From Planctomycetota bacterium (GTDB lineage Bacteria; Planctomycetota; Planctomycetia; Pirellulales; Pirellulaceae), in contig JAPLNL010000119.1 in assembly GCA_026692905.1 (NCBI GenBank), forward strand, positions 186,001 to 250,000: a stretch of 64,000 nucleotides of DNA, written 5' to 3'. How positions within the stretch are numbered: the first letter of the stretch is position 1; each line of letters begins with the position of its first letter. Positions 17,418 to 62,095 of this stretch are shown here, in pieces. The position numbers and the translations under genes are program-made. The notes beneath the pieces are model-generated. The model was not told the DNA's origin. It saw only the letters and a program-made list of their open reading frames with translations, and did not search any database.

Positions 17418-17513
17418 CCTAGCACGACGCGCAAGCTAGTGAACGCACTATCTACCTACCCTAGCACGACGCGCAAGCTAGTGAACGCACTCTCCAATTC
17501 ACTAGCTTGCGCG
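17418..17513. repeat. Palindrome family A, two copies in tandem
   Basis: A half copy (17418-17449) is followed by a second copy whose arm CGCGCAAGCTAGTGAA (17470-17485) pairs perfectly with 17498-17513. Both carry AGCACGACGCGCAAGCTAG. Together with the terminator at 17721 they fill the 466-bp gap between ruvB and the lactate permease gene. No protein-coding gene was seen in that gap. Confidence 0.85.
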
Positions 17514-17720
17514 TTTTGAAATTGTACCAATTGGGCATGAAAGGCCGACATATGCCTAGCACGTGCGAATTCTGGCAGTCAATTTTGCCCACAGTGACTT
17601 TGGATATTTGTCGTTTTGTCCGGTTCGGGCTTGTCCCAAATGGACACCGCACTGGTGTTCTAATGGGGCCGCGTGGTGAAATGACAACTCTGGATTTGTC
17701 GCACCGCCAAGGGCGAGTGT

Positions 17721-17744
17721 AAAACGATTGTCCTCAATCGTTTT
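17721..17744. terminator. Bidirectional hairpin terminator
   Basis: AAAACGATTG pairs perfectly with CAATCGTTTT around a four-base loop. It has A and T runs on either side, so it can work on both strands. It sits 33 bp beyond the stop of the minus-strand lactate permease gene. Confidence 0.7.
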
Positions 17745-17776
17745 GGAAGTGCAGACCACAATCGCTCCGCAGCGCA

Positions 17777-19453: not shown

Positions 19454-19530
19454 ATCGGAATAGGAAGGAAGGAATTGAACTGGGCGAGCGCTGGAGTATC
19501 GTCTCTAGGTTAGCGGATAGTTCCAATATA

Positions 19531-19556
19531 TCTAGCACGACGCGCAAGCTAGTGAC
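19531..19556. repeat. Palindrome family A, single arm
   Basis: Contains the family core AGCACGACGCGCAAGCTAG followed by TGAC. Only one arm is present; the matching inverted arm is missing. It lies upstream of the lactate permease start. Confidence 0.8.
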
Positions 19557-19600
19557 AGAAGTCTTAAGTTCCTTCCGGTTTTTAAGTTCAGCTTACCCTC

Positions 19601-19759
19601 GTTCCAAGGCTCGGCCTTGGAACGCACTGCCCTCGAGGCTCCGCCTCGCGTTAGCCATGCCTTTACAACTCAGAAGGCAGGAGCCTCCGGTGCATTGCGT
19701 CCCCAGGCGGAGCCAGGGTACGAGTGCTAAACACCGGAAGGAACTTCCGGGTTTTAGCA
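19601..19759. repeat. Compound palindrome cluster downstream of the frameshifted membrane gene
   Basis: GTTCCAAGG pairs with CCTTGGAAC (19601-19623). A GAGGC/GCCTC hairpin follows near 19634. Then TGCTAAACACCGGAAG (19725-19740) pairs with 19744-19759 with mismatches, ending exactly at the stop codon of the minus-strand gene. The outer parts (CTCG near 19598 and GTACGAG near 19724) are also complementary, so the block is nested. It may terminate transcription, and it looks like another mobile palindrome element. Confidence 0.6.
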
Positions 19760-20189: not shown

Positions 20190-20410
20190 AAGTGGCGTAG
20201 GGTATGGTAAAGCAATGCTTCAAGAATGTAACATAAAGCAGTCGCAGCGTGGCACTGGCTCGCATCATCGCGAGACTTGTCGATTCCCGTCATAGTGAAT
20301 GGATCTTTGCCGAGCCGCAGCGTAGGTATACTGAGAAAGGTGCATTCTGTATACTGATTGCTGGCCCACCAAACGGTTAGGCGATCGATAGACCTAAATC
20401 TACCGTAGGA

Positions 20411-20456
20411 TGGGACCATTGTCCCGTCCGTCTATTCGTTCGGGACAATGGTCCCA
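20411..20456. repeat. Perfect 16-bp inverted repeat upstream of the lipoprotein gene
   Basis: TGGGACCATTGTCCCG (20411-20426) pairs perfectly with 20441-20456 around a 14-base loop. Each arm is itself a small palindrome (GGGAC-CATT-GTCCC). It is followed at 20478-20495 by the GCCGCTCGCCTTAAG border found beside other palindromes. Confidence 0.85.
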
Positions 20457-20526
20457 AACTACCACGGCAGTTTTCATCCTGCCGCTCGCCTTAAGACGCA
20501 ATCACTACACCCGGCGGAGGACTTCC

Positions 20527-21025: not shown

Positions 21026-21709
21026 ATGAAACCGATCGTTCAAATCTCCCTGGACCTTACCAATATTGACGAAGCCCTTGAGACTGCCGCGATGGCGATG
21101 CGAGCTGGCGTCGATTGGCTTGAAGCTGGGACGCCGTTGATCTTGGCTGAAGGGTTGCACGGCATTCGCGCTCTGCGCGCCGCGTTTCCCACGACACCTA
21201 TCATTGCCGATCTCAAGACCATGGACGGTGGATACCTCGAAGCCCAAATGATGGCTGGTGCCGGAGCAACCCATGTGGTCGTGATGGCTCGCGCTCACGA
21301 AGAAACGATTCGATGCGTCGTCAAAGCGGGCAAGGATTTTGGCGTTAAGGTTATGGGGGACAACATGGTTTGCCCTGACATGGTCGCCGGCGCAAAATGG
21401 CTTGAGGATCTCGGTTGCGACTATGTTATCCACCATATTGGCTACGATGAGCGTCGAGGAATCGCGGCCCGTGGGCTTCGCATGCCGAGCCCGTTGGATC
21501 AGCTTCGGCAGGTAGCCGACGCTGTGAAGATTCCAGTTCAAGCGGTGGGTGGGCTTTCTTTGGAGCAAGCGATTCAGTGCCCGGCCTACGGAGCACCCTT
21601 GGTCGTTCTCGGAGCCCCATTAACCATTGACGCAGACGCCTTCAAAACCGCAAGCGGTGACCTGGAATCGTCCTTAAGAATGATCTGCCACGCAATAAAA
21701 GGCACCTAA
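21026..21709 (+). CDS. 3-hexulose-6-phosphate synthase-like enzyme (OMPDC superfamily)
   Basis: TIM-barrel enzyme of 227 aa. The superfamily motif DxKxxD appears as IADLKTMDGG, preceded by DWLEAGTPLILAEGL and followed by IHHIGYDERRG and AVGGLSL. Members form hexulose phosphate from formaldehyde and ribulose 5-phosphate, or decarboxylate keto-gulonate phosphate. The HPS-like N-terminus favours the former, but specificity is not certain. No 6-phospho-3-hexuloisomerase is adjacent. Palindrome border E overlaps its stop codon. Confidence 0.82.
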   Translation: MKPIVQISLDLTNIDEALETAAMAMRAGVDWLEAGTPLILAEGLHGIRALRAAFPTTPIIADLKTMDGGYLEAQMMAGAGATHVVVMARAHEETIRCVVKAGKDFGVKVMGDNMVCPDMVAGAKWLEDLGCDYVIHHIGYDERRGIAARGLRMPSPLDQLRQVADAVKIPVQAVGGLSLEQAIQCPAYGAPLVVLGAPLTIDADAFKTASGDLESSLRMICHAIKGT

Positions 21710-21794
21710 GGCGAGCGGCAGGCGGAAAACGTTCGTAGCTGGATTCGCCAGAATTCAGAACGTACTGAATTCTGGCGAATCCAGCTACGAACGT
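21708..21794. repeat. Border E plus palindrome family B (perfect 30-bp arms)
   Basis: The border AAGGCGAGCGGCA (21708-21720) overlaps the preceding stop codon. A perfect inverted repeat follows: 21729-21758 pairs with 21765-21794 around a six-base loop. The arm contains CGTAGCTGGATTCGCCAGAA. RNA made across it would form a very stable hairpin. It fills much of the 260-bp gap before the giant gene; the rest shows no gene. Confidence 0.92.
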
Positions 21795-21969
21795 CTTAAG
21801 TAGATTTGCTAATCGCAGAAAGCGTCTTTACTCCTCCTGATTCTGTTCAGGCATGACTTTTCGCGAGCTATTCTTTGCCTGAGTGGCCGATTTCCAGGAA
21901 CCGGCCTAGTTAGCCGTTCGTCTATTCCCACGAACCAAGTTACTTCGCGACCCTCTTTAGAGTAAAACC

Positions 21970-38700: not shown

Positions 38701-40391
38701 AAGACGTAGTCTTGAGCGTACCAGGAGCGACGATCACAGAAGGTTTGAGCAAAGGACCGGGTGAGGATGCTCAAACGCTTACGGTCACCAATGCTGTCAA
38801 CCAGACTCCTGGTAGCGGTACGGTCGCGATCGTGAATGGCAACATTGTTTACACGCCAGCCAAAGATTTTAATGGAACCGTTTTGGTGCTCTACACCGTG
38901 ACGGACAACGGCGTCAACAATACGACGCCGGCACCCCTAAGTGCATCCGCCACTTTGACGATCACCGTTGCGCCCGTCAATGATCCACCAGTCGCTGTTG
39001 CTGACTCTGCTGCTTCGACTTCAGAAAATCAAGCGGTAACGATTGCGATTTCAACGCTTCTTGCAAATGACTTGCCAGGGCCAGCCAACGAAAGTTCGCA
39101 GACGGTTTCGTTTGTTCCGTTTTCGGGTTCTGTTGCAACAGCCAAGGGTGGCGCTATGGTGTTGGACAACCGCGGCACGCCAGCAGATCTGACGGACGAC
39201 CGATTGGTCTACACTCCAGCTACATCGTTCAATGGAGCGGATAGCTTCACTTATCAAATTAGCGATGGTCAAGCGACTCTGTCCACTGCGACGGCTACCT
39301 TGGCTATCAACGTTACCGAAGTGAATGATGCTCCAACCGCCGCGAATTTGACGCGAAGTGTTTACGCAAGTGTGCCAACCGTCTTCGATTTGTCGGATGA
39401 CTTGGCGACGATGCCAAAGGGACCAGCCAACGAAAGTGGGCAAACTCTACGAGTTAGCCGCATCCTTCGTGACGCGACCACGATCGGCACGATTGTCTTG
39501 AACGCGAATGGTACGATCACCTATACGGCACCACTCGGAGCCAGCGGGCGAGACACGTTCCGATACGAGATCGTAGACAATGGAACAACCAACGGAGTTG
39601 CGGATCCCAAGACTTCGATCGGTACATTCAATGTTGACATCTCGCCATTTATTCCAAGCACAATTCGCGGAACGGTTTACGTCGACGACAATGCCACTGG
39701 CGTTATGGAATCAAATGAACTGCGAATGGGTGGTGTCGAAGTAACACTGTTCGCACCTGCGACTGCGACTTCTCCAGCCCGGACGCAGATAAAGCAAACG
39801 CATGCAGACGGTACTTATTCGTTCGACTTGCTACCGCCCGGCTTATATACGGTTACCTATGCCGTTCCGTCGTTCACCATCGATTCCCCAAGTCCCAATA
39901 CGTTTACCCGGACGATTGTCGCACCGGGCAACGTGGATGCTGTGTTCAATTTCAGCGTCCTAGGTATTCAGCCTGGTTATAGCAGCGTGCTTGAAAACTT
40001 GGCGTCCAGCTACTATGCCAGCAACCCAAATGCGAGAACCACTGGGGTTTACGCTGCCATCGGGGTCAATGGACGATCGGAATGGACCGTAGCCCGCGAT
40101 GGTTACCAAGGAGATACCTTCCAGGAAGTCGTGCTTAGCGATGATCGACGCAACGCGTTTTTCACCACCGTTCGCGGTGCCGCGCACGAAGTGTTCACGG
40201 CAACTTTGGACACAAGGCAATTCGTTGTGGTGTCGGATGGAAGCGGGCAAAAGATCGTTCGAGTTCTTGCTCGCAGTTCCGACTTGGTCTGGCAGCAAGT
40301 TTCGCTGGCTGCTCCGCCCGTACAAATTACCTCCCGGGCAAAAAGCTACTTGGATTCGGTGGACGAACTCTTCGAACAAGAGAATTGGTAG
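35724..40391 (+). CDS. Giant extracellular protein with dockerin-like and cadherin/Ig-like repeats
   Basis: Protein of 1555 aa. The N-terminus carries the planctomycete export motif LRLESLEQRQLMAGD. Two dockerin-like calcium repeats follow: DVNGDFSISPLDALVVINRL and DTDNDNNLSPLDALIVVNAI. A unique domain (about 115-470) precedes seven to eight tandem Ig/cadherin-like repeats of 90-110 aa, most joined by TPVNDAP-type linkers. An SdrD_B/Cna-B-like domain follows (TIRGTVYVDDNATGVMESNE). It is a surface or matrix adhesin-type protein. The ATG at 35724 follows TGGAAG. Codon-level repetition raises the chance of recombination between repeats. Confidence 0.85.
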   Translation: MSVSPIRQARKSSTRNRSQKSAKQGWMKRMLRLESLEQRQLMAGDLMPFHNSIAAADVNGDFSISPLDALVVINRLNTQGSGSLAGQSPTDINSFVDTDNDNNLSPLDALIVVNAINNGEGVGEKAQVRYKFFSVNADGTAGTELPDPNPFDQVPEASIGIGDRIIVRTQMADLRSDAGNPQGVFSAYHDLSYTNADGSAAEKLQFQWGEYNQIDIGNSVRGGTFTIKFGTQTTAPIAPAFITTGTGVKIYDATGTATNIRNGLQALSSIGTGNVTVRTLTNSSTSRFGVNFIGSLAHVDVPDVLEVGTNNLVDGAVPPVAVSLTIGQNTADPGLDLVASVARNNFLKSANAFGTETGLEYINGLDGRLLPAVAGSPTRTITLLGGFSNKNSLKLVEAVEFVSVVDTLFKGTSVGIINLSANTSPPPASGSSGNNLGIALYGGLAQYLASNVVVLGTGKININDKLTANTDTASVAEDSGQTIVNVVANDLNAVGPKADIQVTGVTQPSAGGTVTVNGTTNIAFTPAADYFGPVTFTYTIRNNATPPDTATGTVSINVTAVNDAPRVVATAFSVAEDPATPLVITAAQIFTPGPANESDQTITLSSLGTTPNGTVTIVGNSINFTPTANFFGNAIFTVTGTDNGTPTLSTVATITVNVTPVNDAPVPFNGTLTVAEDGSLILIGAGAGTDILASSNPGPNEASTQTVRLISIQSPTAQAGTITTVGGITTYKPSANFFGTDTFTYTISDNGTPTELTAVGTVTINVTSVNDAPSAVNDTGETARFVVLGINVANSLAVMRNDSAGPFETNDTINIVSVTTPTIGTATVNAAGTAVLFTPPTGSFNTTSTFSYTIRDSGGLTSTANVEVFIIPPVLPFALTDTASIAEDSSAFTIDVIANDFANTGAIKSLLSFAQPASGTGSVVLDNRSTPTDLTDDRLVYTPSADFFGEAVFTYTMNDDKVGSVASIGTVTITVTPVNDPPTAIGRTATTNEDVVLSVPGATITEGLSKGPGEDAQTLTVTNAVNQTPGSGTVAIVNGNIVYTPAKDFNGTVLVLYTVTDNGVNNTTPAPLSASATLTITVAPVNDPPVAVADSAASTSENQAVTIAISTLLANDLPGPANESSQTVSFVPFSGSVATAKGGAMVLDNRGTPADLTDDRLVYTPATSFNGADSFTYQISDGQATLSTATATLAINVTEVNDAPTAANLTRSVYASVPTVFDLSDDLATMPKGPANESGQTLRVSRILRDATTIGTIVLNANGTITYTAPLGASGRDTFRYEIVDNGTTNGVADPKTSIGTFNVDISPFIPSTIRGTVYVDDNATGVMESNELRMGGVEVTLFAPATATSPARTQIKQTHADGTYSFDLLPPGLYTVTYAVPSFTIDSPSPNTFTRTIVAPGNVDAVFNFSVLGIQPGYSSVLENLASSYYASNPNARTTGVYAAIGVNGRSEWTVARDGYQGDTFQEVVLSDDRRNAFFTTVRGAAHEVFTATLDTRQFVVVSDGSGQKIVRVLARSSDLVWQQVSLAAPPVQITSRAKSYLDSVDELFEQENW

Positions 40392-40414: not shown

Positions 40415-40450
40415 AAAGCACCCGAAATCCTTCGGGTGCTTTTTTTGTTT
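40415..40450 (+). terminator. Rho-independent terminator of the giant surface-protein gene
   Basis: AGCACCCGAA (40417-40426) pairs perfectly with TTCGGGTGCT (40431-40440) around ATCC, followed by six T. It lies 24 bp after the stop codon. Confidence 0.93.
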
Positions 40451-40470
40451 TGCTTCAGCGAATTGAGAGG

Positions 40471-40646
40471 TAGCGAAACTCGTCAAGAGTTTCGGCCCGG
40501 TTGGCAAGGCGAGCGGCAGCATGAATACTACCCTAGCACGACGCGCGAGCTAGTGAATCAACTATCCAATTCACTAGCTCGCGCGTCGTGCTAGGTATAT
40601 CTGAACCCGCCGCCCGCCTAACCGAAAGTCTTGACGACTTCCGCTA
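40471..40646. repeat. Three-shell nested palindrome element (families C, E and A)
   Basis: Outer shell C: 40471-40495 pairs with 40622-40646 with three mismatches. Middle shell E: AAGGCGAGCGGCA (40506-40518) faces GCCGCCCGCCTA (40609-40620). Core A: 40533-40558 pairs perfectly over 26 bp with 40569-40594 around a ten-base loop. The whole 176-bp unit could fold into one long cruciform. It lies in the 420-bp gap between the giant gene's terminator and cysK. Confidence 0.92.
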
Positions 40647-40733
40647 CAGCTTCAAGTTCCGCTACAGCTTCAGCCGAATTCTTGCTGGAAGCCTATCTCA
40701 GAGACTCCTGTGGGCGATTTCTTTAAAAAAGCG

Positions 40734-40812: not shown

Positions 40813-41754
40813 ATGGCTTTGGGAAAGACCTTTGACAGCGTTGTTACTACGGTTGGAAACACCCCGATGATTCGCATCAATCGATTGGTGCCACCAGAAC
40901 ATGCGACGGTCTTTGCCAAATGCGAGTTCTTTAATCCCCTCCACAGCGTCAAAGATCGGATTGGTATGGCCATGGTTGAGGATGCCGAACAAAGTGGCAG
41001 ATTGACCAAGGAGACTCATATTATAGAGCCAACGAGCGGAAATACCGGAATCGCCTTGGCGTTTGTGTGTGCAGCCAAAGGCTATCGTTTGACGTTGACC
41101 ATGCCCGAATCGATGTCGGTTGAGCGGCGTGCGTTGCTTCGTGCATTAGGGGCAAGTTTAGTGCTAACTCCAGCAGCCGATGGAATGCGAGGCGCGATTG
41201 CCAAGGCATCCGAATTGGTTGCGAACGACCCCAATGGTTGGATGCCGCAGCAATTTGAAAATCCCGCCAATCCTGCGGTCCACGAGAGGACAACGGGGCC
41301 CGAGATATGGGCTGACTCAGCAGGACAGATCGATGCGATCGTTGCTGGCGTCGGAACGGGAGGAACAATTACTGGAGTCTCTCGCTATCTTAAAAAGCTC
41401 AATCCAAATTTCAAAGCGATCGCTGTGGAACCAAAGCAATCGCCGGTGATCAGTGGCGGTCAACCTGGCAAACACCGCATTCAAGGGATCGGAGCTGGCT
41501 TCGTGCCAAAGAACCTCGATCGATCCATTATCGACGATGTGATTCAAGTGGACGACGAGGTCGCGTTTGAGTGGGGCCGCAAGCTTGCCAAGCACGAGGG
41601 AATCCTAGGCGGTATCAGCAGTGGTGCCAACATGTGGGCGGCAGCTCAAGTTGCTGCCCGACCTGAATTCCAAGGCAAACGCATTGTGACCATCATGTGT
41701 AGTCTCGGGGAGCGTTATCTCTCGACACCTCTGTTTGGCGATCTAGGAACCTAA
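40813..41754 (+). CDS. cysK: Cysteine synthase A (O-acetylserine sulfhydrylase)
   Basis: PLP enzyme of 313 aa that makes L-cysteine from O-acetylserine and sulfide. The PLP Lys lies in NPLHSVKDRIG, the substrate loop is EPTSGNTGIALAF, the phosphate loop is GVGTGGTITG, and the C-terminal part is GISSGAN. The ATG at 40813 matches the usual CysK N-terminus and length; the 75 codons upstream in frame run through repeat DNA. It is followed 23 bp later by a Tat-exported gene on the same strand. Confidence 0.94.
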   Translation: MALGKTFDSVVTTVGNTPMIRINRLVPPEHATVFAKCEFFNPLHSVKDRIGMAMVEDAEQSGRLTKETHIIEPTSGNTGIALAFVCAAKGYRLTLTMPESMSVERRALLRALGASLVLTPAADGMRGAIAKASELVANDPNGWMPQQFENPANPAVHERTTGPEIWADSAGQIDAIVAGVGTGGTITGVSRYLKKLNPNFKAIAVEPKQSPVISGGQPGKHRIQGIGAGFVPKNLDRSIIDDVIQVDDEVAFEWGRKLAKHEGILGGISSGANMWAAAQVAARPEFQGKRIVTIMCSLGERYLSTPLFGDLGT

Positions 41755-42869: not shown

Positions 42870-42882
42870 AATAACTGGTCTG

Positions 42883-43002
42883 CTCGACAGTGGTGTACTC
42901 GACAGTGGTGTACTCGACAGTGGTGTACTCGACAGTGGTGTACTCGACAGTGGTGTACTCGACAGTGGTGTACTCGACAGTGTACTCGACAGTGGTGTAC
43001 TC
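42883..43002. repeat. Minisatellite: 15-bp unit, eight copies
   Basis: Unit CTCGACAGTGGTGTA repeated eight times without spacers; the seventh copy (42973-42984) is shortened to 12 bp. Copies are otherwise identical, which implies recent expansion. It lies between the 3' ends of the toroid gene and the convergent sigma-54 regulator, 13 bp after the first stop. It contains no stop codon in some frames, so it creates false long frames on both strands. Confidence 0.97.
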
Positions 43003-43082
43003 CATGGGGTCACTCTTGCCGAGTGAGCCCTTGAGGCGAAAGCAGCGAATCGAATATCGAAAATCCACCGTATGCAACGAGC

Positions 43083-50698: not shown

Positions 50699-50744
50699 TT
50701 GTTGCAGTGCATTCCAAGGCGGAGCTACGCCCACCATTGCTCGC

Positions 50745-51197: not shown

Positions 51198-51292
51198 GAA
51201 TTTGACTCCAACAAAAGGTAAGCTTTTGGTAACTAGTGGGACACCCGCCTGTGAACTCTAACTAGAAACATAGGTCGAAAAAGCTTGGAAGG

Positions 51293-51357
51293 AGCGAAGT
51301 TCGTCAAGACTTTCGGTGGTTCAGGCGATTCAGCCGAAAGTCTTGACGACTTTCGCT
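51293..51357. repeat. Palindrome family C
   Basis: Arm 51293-51316 pairs with 51334-51357 over 24 bp with one mismatch. The arm contains CGTCAAGACTTTCGG, matching the outer shell of the nested element at 40471-40646. It lies just beyond the 3' end of the OleC-like gene. Confidence 0.9.
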
Positions 51358-51373
51358 ACGCATAAGCACGCAA

Positions 51374-53109: not shown

Positions 53110-53805
53110 TTACTTGATCGTGATGGGAATAACTAGCTTTGCCCCAGACTCGTTTCGCACAATAGCCGCGTTGAGGTCGATTGCCGCTTCGTTGAATTTG
53201 GGAGGTCCGAAGCCACGTTTAGGATTCGAGGAAAAACCATATCGCTCGATTGGAATGCCGAATGAATTTTTGTCCAGCCGAGAATTGTCATTTTCGTCAT
53301 GATAGGCGGAAACGGCGATTTCGCTTCTGTCTATTTCAGCGGGGAGCTTAAACTCCAGAGTCGCCTCTGCTTTCGAATCGAGAACGGAAGTCGATTCCTT
53401 TGCGATCGCATACTCCAGATCATTGAAATGGGCTTTACCCAAATACACCGCGACCCGACAAAAACCCTTGTCGTTGGCAAACCCCTCTACTTGCACGATC
53501 AGCTTCAACGTAGTCCCACTCGATGTTGGGGCCGCAACGATTTGCTCGGTAGGTCGAGATTGCTCGGTAGGTTGAGATTGCTCGGTAGGTTGAGGAGGCT
53601 TGGATGAAATCGTTGAATCAACATGAGAGTTTGTAATTGGTTTCTGCGTAGCTGGCCGATCGCAGCCGAGCAACGCTATGACACAGCAAACCAACCCAAG
53701 CCCAAACTCGATGTCTTTACCGAATCCCTTCCACGATTCGTAGCTGGATTCGCCAGAATTCGGCTCTTTCTGAATTCTGGCGAATCCCGCTACGCGATTT
53801 CCCAT
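53110..53805 (-). CDS. DUF2141 lipoprotein with a repeat-encoded N-terminus
   Basis: Protein of 231 aa. The C-terminal ~130 residues are a DUF2141 domain (GFCRVAVYLGKAHF, AYHDENDNSRLDKNSFGIP). Before it lies a lipobox (LVCCVIALLGC) and a Thr/Gln-rich linker made of three near-identical hexapeptides encoded by an 18-bp tandem repeat. The first ~30 codons are palindrome family B read in frame. No usable start codon lies between that repeat and the signal helix, so the protein seems to begin inside or before the repeat. DUF2141 function is unknown. Confidence 0.72.
   Translation of the reverse strand: MGNRVAGFARIQKEPNSGESSYESWKGFGKDIEFGLGLVCCVIALLGCDRPATQKPITNSHVDSTISSKPPQPTEQSQPTEQSRPTEQIVAAPTSSGTTLKLIVQVEGFANDKGFCRVAVYLGKAHFNDLEYAIAKESTSVLDSKAEATLEFKLPAEIDRSEIAVSAYHDENDNSRLDKNSFGIPIERYGFSSNPKRGFGPPKFNEAAIDLNAAIVRNESGAKLVIPITIK
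53542..53595. repeat. 18-bp in-frame tandem repeat, three copies
   Basis: Three 18-bp units with one or two differences encode PTEQSQ-type hexapeptides in the DUF2141 protein's linker. They could vary in number without breaking the frame. Confidence 0.9.
53739..53794. repeat. Palindrome family B inside a coding start
   Basis: Arm 53739-53761 pairs with 53772-53794 with one mismatch over 23 bp, around a ten-base loop. The arm matches CGTAGCTGGATTCGCCAGAA of the copy at 21729. It lies in frame within the N-terminal coding sequence of the DUF2141 lipoprotein. Confidence 0.92.
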
Positions 53806-57796: not shown

Positions 57797-57873
57797 AGAG
57801 TTCAGTACGGGGGAGGGTCAGGCCACCGCTGTAAGCAGATTTCTAACGAGTTTACCTAAGCAATTCGTTGTTC

Positions 57874-58037
57874 GGGAGGGTGAGGCTCCTGCCGAACCAT
57901 TGCACCGTTGGCTCGGCAGGAGCCTCGCCCTCCCTAAGGTTTTCAACGGAATTGACTTTGCAAAGATGTTTACAGGGCTGGGGTGAGGCTCCTGCCGAAC
58001 CTTGGCGTCGCAAGCTCGGCAGGAGCCTCGCTCTCCC
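57874..58037. repeat. Composite palindrome family D, two hairpins with a conserved linker
   Basis: First hairpin: 57874-57895 pairs with 57913-57934 (arm TGAGGCTCCTGCCGA). Second hairpin: about 57979-57998 pairs with 58016-58037. Between them lies the linker with GGAATTGACTTTGCAAAGAT; 57918-57977 equals 31366-31425 with one difference. It sits between the convergent DUF2071 and GT2 genes. Confidence 0.9.
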
Positions 58038-58071
58038 GTTTTTACCGGAACACTTGATTTCGCAAAGTTGT

Positions 58072-61838: not shown

Positions 61839-62095
61839 TTAGGCGAGCGGCAAAATGAAAACTACCTTAGCACGACGCGCAAGCTAGTGAATTGGATAGT
61901 AGATTCACTAGCTTGCGAGTCGTGCTAAGCACATCCGCATTTGCTTTTCGCATTAATTATCCGACGGGCGCTAGCCCCGGTTCTCGACGAAGGTCGAGTA
62001 GAAAACCGGGGCTAGCGCCCAACGGCTAAAGGTTTGTTTCACTAAAATTCATGCCGAAGTGCTTAGGTACATTGGAACCCGCCGCTCGCCTTAAG
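61839..62095. repeat. Composite palindrome element: border E, family A, palindrome F, border E
   Basis: Left border TTAGGCGAGCGGCA (61839-61852). Family A: 61867-61892 pairs with 61903-61928 with one mismatch. Palindrome F: GGGCGCTAGCCCCGG (from 61966) pairs perfectly with 62004-62020 and encloses a CTCGAC/GTCGAG hairpin. Right border GCCGCTCGCCTTAAG (62081-62095). The borders form inverted ends of a 257-bp unit. The remaining ~110 bp up to the BBP7 start shows no gene. Confidence 0.9.

Follow-up and report, generated by a model that had tools for sequence, protein, structure and literature searches.

The stretch of DNA analysed here (the window, 64,000 nucleotides) covers positions 186001-250000 of contig C119 in a planctomycete draft genome of 5.96 Mb in 148 contigs. 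Three inverted repeats, named C, E and A from the outside inwards, lie nested inside one another at 40470-40647 (Table 1). Before them, a dockerin/cadherin-domain gene, which also carries a planctomycete extracellular motif with a sub-threshold score, ends at 40391; after them, the start of a PALP-family gene is placed at 40813. The three-layer palindrome is confirmed, and its layers are three short mobile repeats, each abundant in the genome, set within one another like Russian dolls. The initial annotation, made from the sequence alone, had already described it at 40471-40646, with three mismatches in C and a perfect A, and in this it was right; its arm lengths of 25 bp for C and 26 bp for A come to 26 and 27 nt, respectively.

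Table 1. Coordinates of the nested palindrome and of related repeats in the window
Feature	Position	Strand	Remarks
A repeats, two direct and one inverted, decayed	17418-17514		region differs in G021
E-D-E element	20380-20490		D doublet at 20405-20462; absent in G021
E left end and B doublet	21710-21794		right E end absent; G021 synteny breaks
C left arm, outer shell	40470-40495	+	GTAG-tagged REP hairpin
E left end, GGCGAGCGGC	40508-40517	+	terminal inverted repeat of MITE-like shell
A left arm, core	40532-40558	+	27 nt, perfect complement
A right arm, core	40569-40595	-	27 nt, perfect complement
E right end	40609-40618	-	one mismatch to left end (10 bp)
C right arm	40622-40647	-	GTAG-tagged REP hairpin, inverted
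C doublet alone	51291-51359		also in G021
B doublet	53740-53793		also in G021
E-A-F-E element	61842-62090		E at both ends; absent in G021

Geometry of the nested palindrome

The C arms are 88% complementary. Stem differences between the two arms (..ACTCGTCAAGAGT.. versus ..AGTCGTCAAGACT..) account for two of their three mismatches, and since these stem positions distinguish one arm from the other in all 21 distinct C doublets examined, the two mismatches reflect a difference that runs through the whole family. The E shell of the locus extends to about 40531. It is preceded by the triplet CAA and followed by TAA (40619-40621), which adjoins the right C arm, so that the 3-bp flanks of E are not identical here. 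Palindromes of this quality far exceed chance in the window: perfect arms of at least 14 nt with a loop of up to 200 nt were found at 14 centres, versus a mean of 0.05 (maximum 1) in 20 Markov resamples, and perfect arms of at least 20 nt at two centres versus none. As single-stranded DNA the whole element folds at -66.7 kcal/mol (z -14.4), a value equalled by none of 200 shuffles, while a lone A arm folds weakly (z -1.85; 9 of 200 shuffles equally good).

Such a stable fold, the intergenic position between the dockerin/cadherin and PALP-family genes and the reading GTTAGGC / GCCTAAC at some E ends, which we take to resemble attC core sites, could be expected of a conserved functional element, either a terminator or attenuator or an attC-like recombination site. 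We give this explanation hardly any credence. An ordinary terminator-like hairpin stands apart from the composite, at 40415-40442, which led us to discard the terminator reading, and the composite was not found in the corresponding intergenic region of G021, a relative about 90% identical (long aligned blocks mostly 86-92%, one block 80%). The attC/integron reading was dropped because GTTAGGC/GCCTAAC is not constant among E copies and, at the E ends that have it, points the wrong way for attC.

REP-type modules and Y1 transposase genes

All modules are high-copy genome-wide, as the initial annotation proposed to check. Pattern matches on both strands, with the reversed pattern as control, number 769 for A and 293 for C (both with up to 2 mismatches), 92 for B and 70 for D, each with a reversed control of 0, and 128 for E, with a control of 16. 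Genic placement was read from an 864-kb sample (40 stretches of 20 kb and the window) in which stop-free stretches of at least 200 codons cover 85% of bases. Inside such stretches fall 6/100 A, 7/55 C, 5/22 B, 6/19 D, 24/84 G and 12/40 H matches, and 46/91 of E, whose short pattern includes chance matches. G denotes palindromes (GGCAGGAGCCTC..) like those at 57873-58038, and H an outer repeat, GGCAACGCTGTGAAGCATTTT.

C, B and D start with GTAG and a hairpin and occur as inverted doublets. C, being mostly extragenic, high-copy and arranged in inverted doublets as REPs and REPINs are, is a GTAG-tagged REP doublet, and A is a REP-like doublet going with a class-3-like Y1 (HUH) transposase. The genome yields seven Y1_Tnp matches, six of them above the Pfam cut-off. 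Y1 gene L036 has A copies on both sides; L035, with HUH and Tyr both present, has D doublets on both sides, the arrangement of a GTAG REP system; L037, on contig C124, lies between copies of a palindrome, AACGATTGTCCTCAATCGTT, that also occurs in the window near 17723. The expectation that a RAYT-like gene would be found with a repeat copy beside it thus holds for A and D, whose genes are of the IS200 type. For C it holds in part: L033 (C99:53074-53412) has a single C doublet, on one side only, and shows Phe at the column of the catalytic Tyr, versus Tyr in the other eight aligned proteins. This Y1-type transposase is possibly inactive or domesticated; a Tyr-bearing RAYT gene between two inverted C copies was not found, and a better partner for C may be absent from the draft assembly. 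No Y1 gene could be matched to B.

Among the six Y1 proteins scanned with NCBIfam models, a set outside which L033 falls, none reached the RAYT cut-off of 80 bits (best 65.3, L035), which speaks against calling them simply RAYTs; L031 and L032 score high enough to count as IS200 transposases. The L036 protein carries NHVH, WWT and Y----Q, matching the NHVH, W[TA] and Y----Q listed for class 3 Y1 proteins in the portion of PMC6006769 that bears on them; the class 3 motifs recur in L226 and L228, the latter with NHIH. A-like hairpins (up to 5 substitutions in 22) lie within 500 bp of seven of ten L036 homologues, and the L036 gene itself is flanked by several high-copy hairpins. In its motifs, its several flanking hairpins, its hundreds of copies and its planctomycete host, the A system therefore resembles the class 3 Y1 systems with atypical hairpins presented in that part of PMC6006769. 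The CnGA foot given there for class 3 was not recognised in A copies, which were checked by eye only, and the repeats here lie in a shell of terminal inverted repeats, unlike those class 3 systems as far as that account goes. Of ten homologues of one transposase of the genome, nine come from MAGs named as planctomycetes and one is titled merely 'bacterium'; the genome is assigned to the planctomycetes by this kinship.

Single A hairpins also form tandem arrays with a period of about 34-46 bp (C103:4-277, C61:19185-19326, C99:20686-20949); several contigs begin or finish in such arrays, probably as assembly breaks. Other repeats were noted as well. Two of about 200 bp (17564-17766 and 19521-19728) have many copies in G021, tandem GTGGTGTACTCGACA units at 42880-43010 are absent from G021, and a 122-bp repeat (CACCCTCCCTCCGGGAGG..) at C29:188678-188799 (L196), with dozens of G021 matches, occupies a site where G021 has a B doublet.

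The E shell, its cores and its mobility

E is not a REP; it is the terminal inverted repeat of a MITE-like shell of about 110 bp, a short non-coding element. Each side of the shell measures about 25 bp, and the inner ends, ACTACC / GGTAGT, carry the GTAG motif. The combinations of modules announced for the window by the initial annotation were largely recovered (Table 1): the lone C doublet expected at 51293, the E element with A and F expected at 61839 and the A copy at 17418, which has a second tandem A arm, are there; the A copy at 19531 is a single arm and not a doublet, and the E-B combination sought at 21708 lacks E on one of its sides. The D doublet bordered by E ends at 20380-20490, one more combination, had been missed.

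Six E elements were compared with G021, and two of them are cleanly absent there with exact E ends. The E-D-E element is flanked by TTA at 20377-20379 and 20491-20493, and the G021 site holds one TTA; the E-A-F-E element is flanked by TTA at 61839-61841 and 62091-62093, and the G021 site holds a single TTG. These are the presence/absence differences between empty and filled sites that the annotation had asked for. Elsewhere, an E-B element at C29:184449 is common to both genomes, a decayed E-B at C29:187326 is also in G021, and an E-A at C29:185095 is absent from G021, but the sequence there is disturbed. The six also include the E element of the nested palindrome and the E-B element of the window (21708-21795); at the latter, synteny passes from G021 contig C16 before it to C139 after it, perhaps because the repeat was the site of a rearrangement. 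G021 alone has a C doublet near 50731.

The 3-bp flanks were compared in 57 E pairs from this genome and its relatives, with chance pairings kept in. Identical flanks were found in 18/57 pairs versus 11.2 by permutation (P 0.007), while inverted identity was found in 5/57. Split by genome, the duplication signal is modest, with 12/37 in the own genome (P 0.055) and 6/20 in relatives (P 0.07). Flanks are mostly TTA or TAA, and identical pairs include TTG/TTG and TAA/TAA. Target-site duplication and empty sites thus both place E with the MITEs, and in duplicating 3 bp of TTA/TAA it is reminiscent of some IS5-like and PIF/Harbinger elements.

Of the 128 E ends, 102 were surveyed for neighbouring cores. 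In 70 of these a core begins no more than 35 nt from the E end (A 48, B 13, D 7, G 2), and the A core sits 15-16 nt from the E end in 38/48. Of the remaining 32, 14 have a module farther off and 18 have no tested module within 180 nt; some of the 32 look, by eye, like decayed or further cores (C29:207680, L268, L271). The inner flanks form one pair in copies that carry A and a different pair in copies that carry D, so that each composite seems, by eye, to have spread as a unit. A search for core-less shells among E pairs 36-66 bp long turned up 26 distinct ones, which by eye are mostly chance; L259 (50 bp) and, in G017, L276:1236 (45 bp) look shell-like, and C29:207683 and L271 hold decayed B cores.

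The shell extends beyond this genome. Its 25-bp pattern, allowing up to 3 mismatches, was found in seven of 40 genomes, with one reversed-control match in all: 94 copies in the own genome, 146 in G021, 82 in G017, 57 in G015, 42 in G009, 28 in G022 and 8 in G002. It was found in none of the 18 other same-genus and 15 same-order genomes searched. Cores in the other genomes were read from the 30 loci returned. Among these, G017, G015, G009 and G002 frequently carry another hairpin core (TAACCCGA..GAGGG), which resembles repeats beside L036 homologues in L228-L230; G022 cores include GTAGCAGGCACATTCC.., and G009 has a D-like core.

Mosaics of this kind could arise mainly from recombination or gene conversion among existing repeats, like BIME mosaicism, rather than from insertion. 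Module order does vary widely, the synteny break falls at an E-B element, and the tandem A arrays point to local amplification; the distance from E end to core is nevertheless fixed, and the clean empty sites with exact E ends weaken this explanation further, leaving it very improbable.

Another possibility is that shell and core travel jointly, as single-stranded DNA, under the action of Y1 (HUH) transposases. TTA would then be a target motif, as in IS608, where the flanking motif is the target motif rather than a duplication, and E would be no separate MITE. Almost all cores are REP-type palindromes, which would fit a role of the core in movement, and TTA/TAA flanks dominate. The 864-kb sample of the own genome and some stretches of relatives yielded no transposase recognising the ends, and with it no enzyme moving E, nor an autonomous E element, two long pairs being unconvincing. 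Against movement by Y1 enzymes alone, identical flanks also read TTG/TTG and TAA/TAA, direct identity exceeds inverted identity, empty sites hold one TTA or TTG where filled sites hold two, and no E ends occur in the inspected flanks of the A copies at L036 and the D copies at L035. We therefore regard it as unlikely.

Probable nested insertion and relation to known repeat systems

The composite most likely unites three non-autonomous kinds of element, an A doublet inside an E MITE that lies between the arms of a C doublet. The E element would insert with a 3-bp duplication, mostly of TTA or TAA, and the E-A unit would have moved as a whole and landed between the arms of the C doublet, the presumed order of events at this locus. 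On this reading, Y1 enzymes would first have placed the cores at the shell centre, as the GTAG in its inner ends suggests, and the shell would be moved by its ends, by a transposase that did not turn up here. The initial proposal of palindromes inserted into palindromes by non-autonomous, REP/BIME- or MITE-like elements is supported; its single mobile family becomes at least three kinds of element, mobile and REP/MITE-like as predicted.

A second A-in-E-in-C composite opens contig C29 (C29:1-163), with TTA on both sides of E and its left C arm cut by the contig end. In G021, an E-A that encloses an E-B (L296) and an A core that encloses a C doublet (L289) were noted by eye, and, again by eye, D doublets lie between G arms at L100 and L106; an H end occurs in 16 of 24 C-doublet clusters in the module strings. 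As other module orders occur, the layers reflect repeated insertion, often near palindrome centres, and not one fixed architecture. A test of whether the flanks of doublets are themselves palindromic, with the 95% level of shuffled flanks as threshold, partially supports insertion near palindrome centres: 5/15 B, 4/13 D and 1/37 C doublets exceed that level. The C value argues against a simple 'centre of a palindrome' rule for this module; H lies off-centre around C, past the offsets that the test allowed.

At the locus itself, three observations weaken this reading: the 3-bp flanks, CAA and TAA, are not identical, the C loop left over differs from the usual 17-nt loop, and comparison with G021 gave no clean empty C. 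Near the corresponding site, next to the matching terminator, G021 carries only a C doublet, which we considered as an empty site and rejected because its orientation is opposite and other sequence of about 1.8 kb separates it from the PALP gene.

Sections of PMC2817692, PMC3116915 and PMC3733652 deal with GTAG REP families, REPINs and RAYT transposases. C, B and D resemble these in their GTAG tag, hairpin, inverted doublets, high copy number and mostly extragenic position, and D resembles RAYT systems in lying on both sides of a Y1 gene. Unlike GTAG REPs, the doublets here sit inside other repeated palindromic elements (E, G and H ends), and, unlike RAYT systems, B lacks a matched Y1 gene and C has a partner without Tyr and on one side. 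The closest precedents retrieved are in the part of PMC3733652 that describes REP dimers within longer palindromes in A. variabilis, T. roseum and H. neapolitanus; it also reports that R. baltica has several REP families and very many tyrosine transposases. What these precedents share with the present case is a longer repeated palindrome centred on a REP dimer. The cases described there have one REP type per palindrome, whereas here one shell holds several, and the present shell differs from them in its 3-bp duplication, its empty sites and its occurrence in several species. REPs also serve as IS insertion targets, according to PMC1525189; in contrast to those insertions, the insert here is a small palindromic element and not a gene-bearing IS. 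The E element resembles MITEs in its size (about 110 bp), its terminal inverted repeats, its duplication of a 3-bp target and its lack of an internal gene, but its centre is an interchangeable REP-type doublet. Our literature search returned no report of one shell of terminal inverted repeats with target duplication and interchangeable REP-type cores across species, and nothing closer than PMC3733652 and PMC6006769.

How such a shell acquires its cores can be addressed tentatively. It is conceivable, at somewhat less than even chances, that E serves as a chassis, with a palindromic centre containing GTAG into which any REP doublet produced by resident Y1 (HUH) transposases can land, so that a MITE lineage gains cores within and between species. 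If so, the spread of a single 110-bp element would depend on two enzymes unrelated to each other, of which one works on its ends and the other on its core.

Small repeats are commonly divided into REPs and MITEs as if these had nothing in common. In the present case, a single shell of terminal inverted repeats bears REP-type doublets of several families, including ones tied to different Y1 transposases; its composites occur in several species and lie inside one another. If the shell takes on new cores, REPs would be able to spread by another route in addition to their own transposase, and such a route would bear on how RAYT-type systems reach hundreds of copies.
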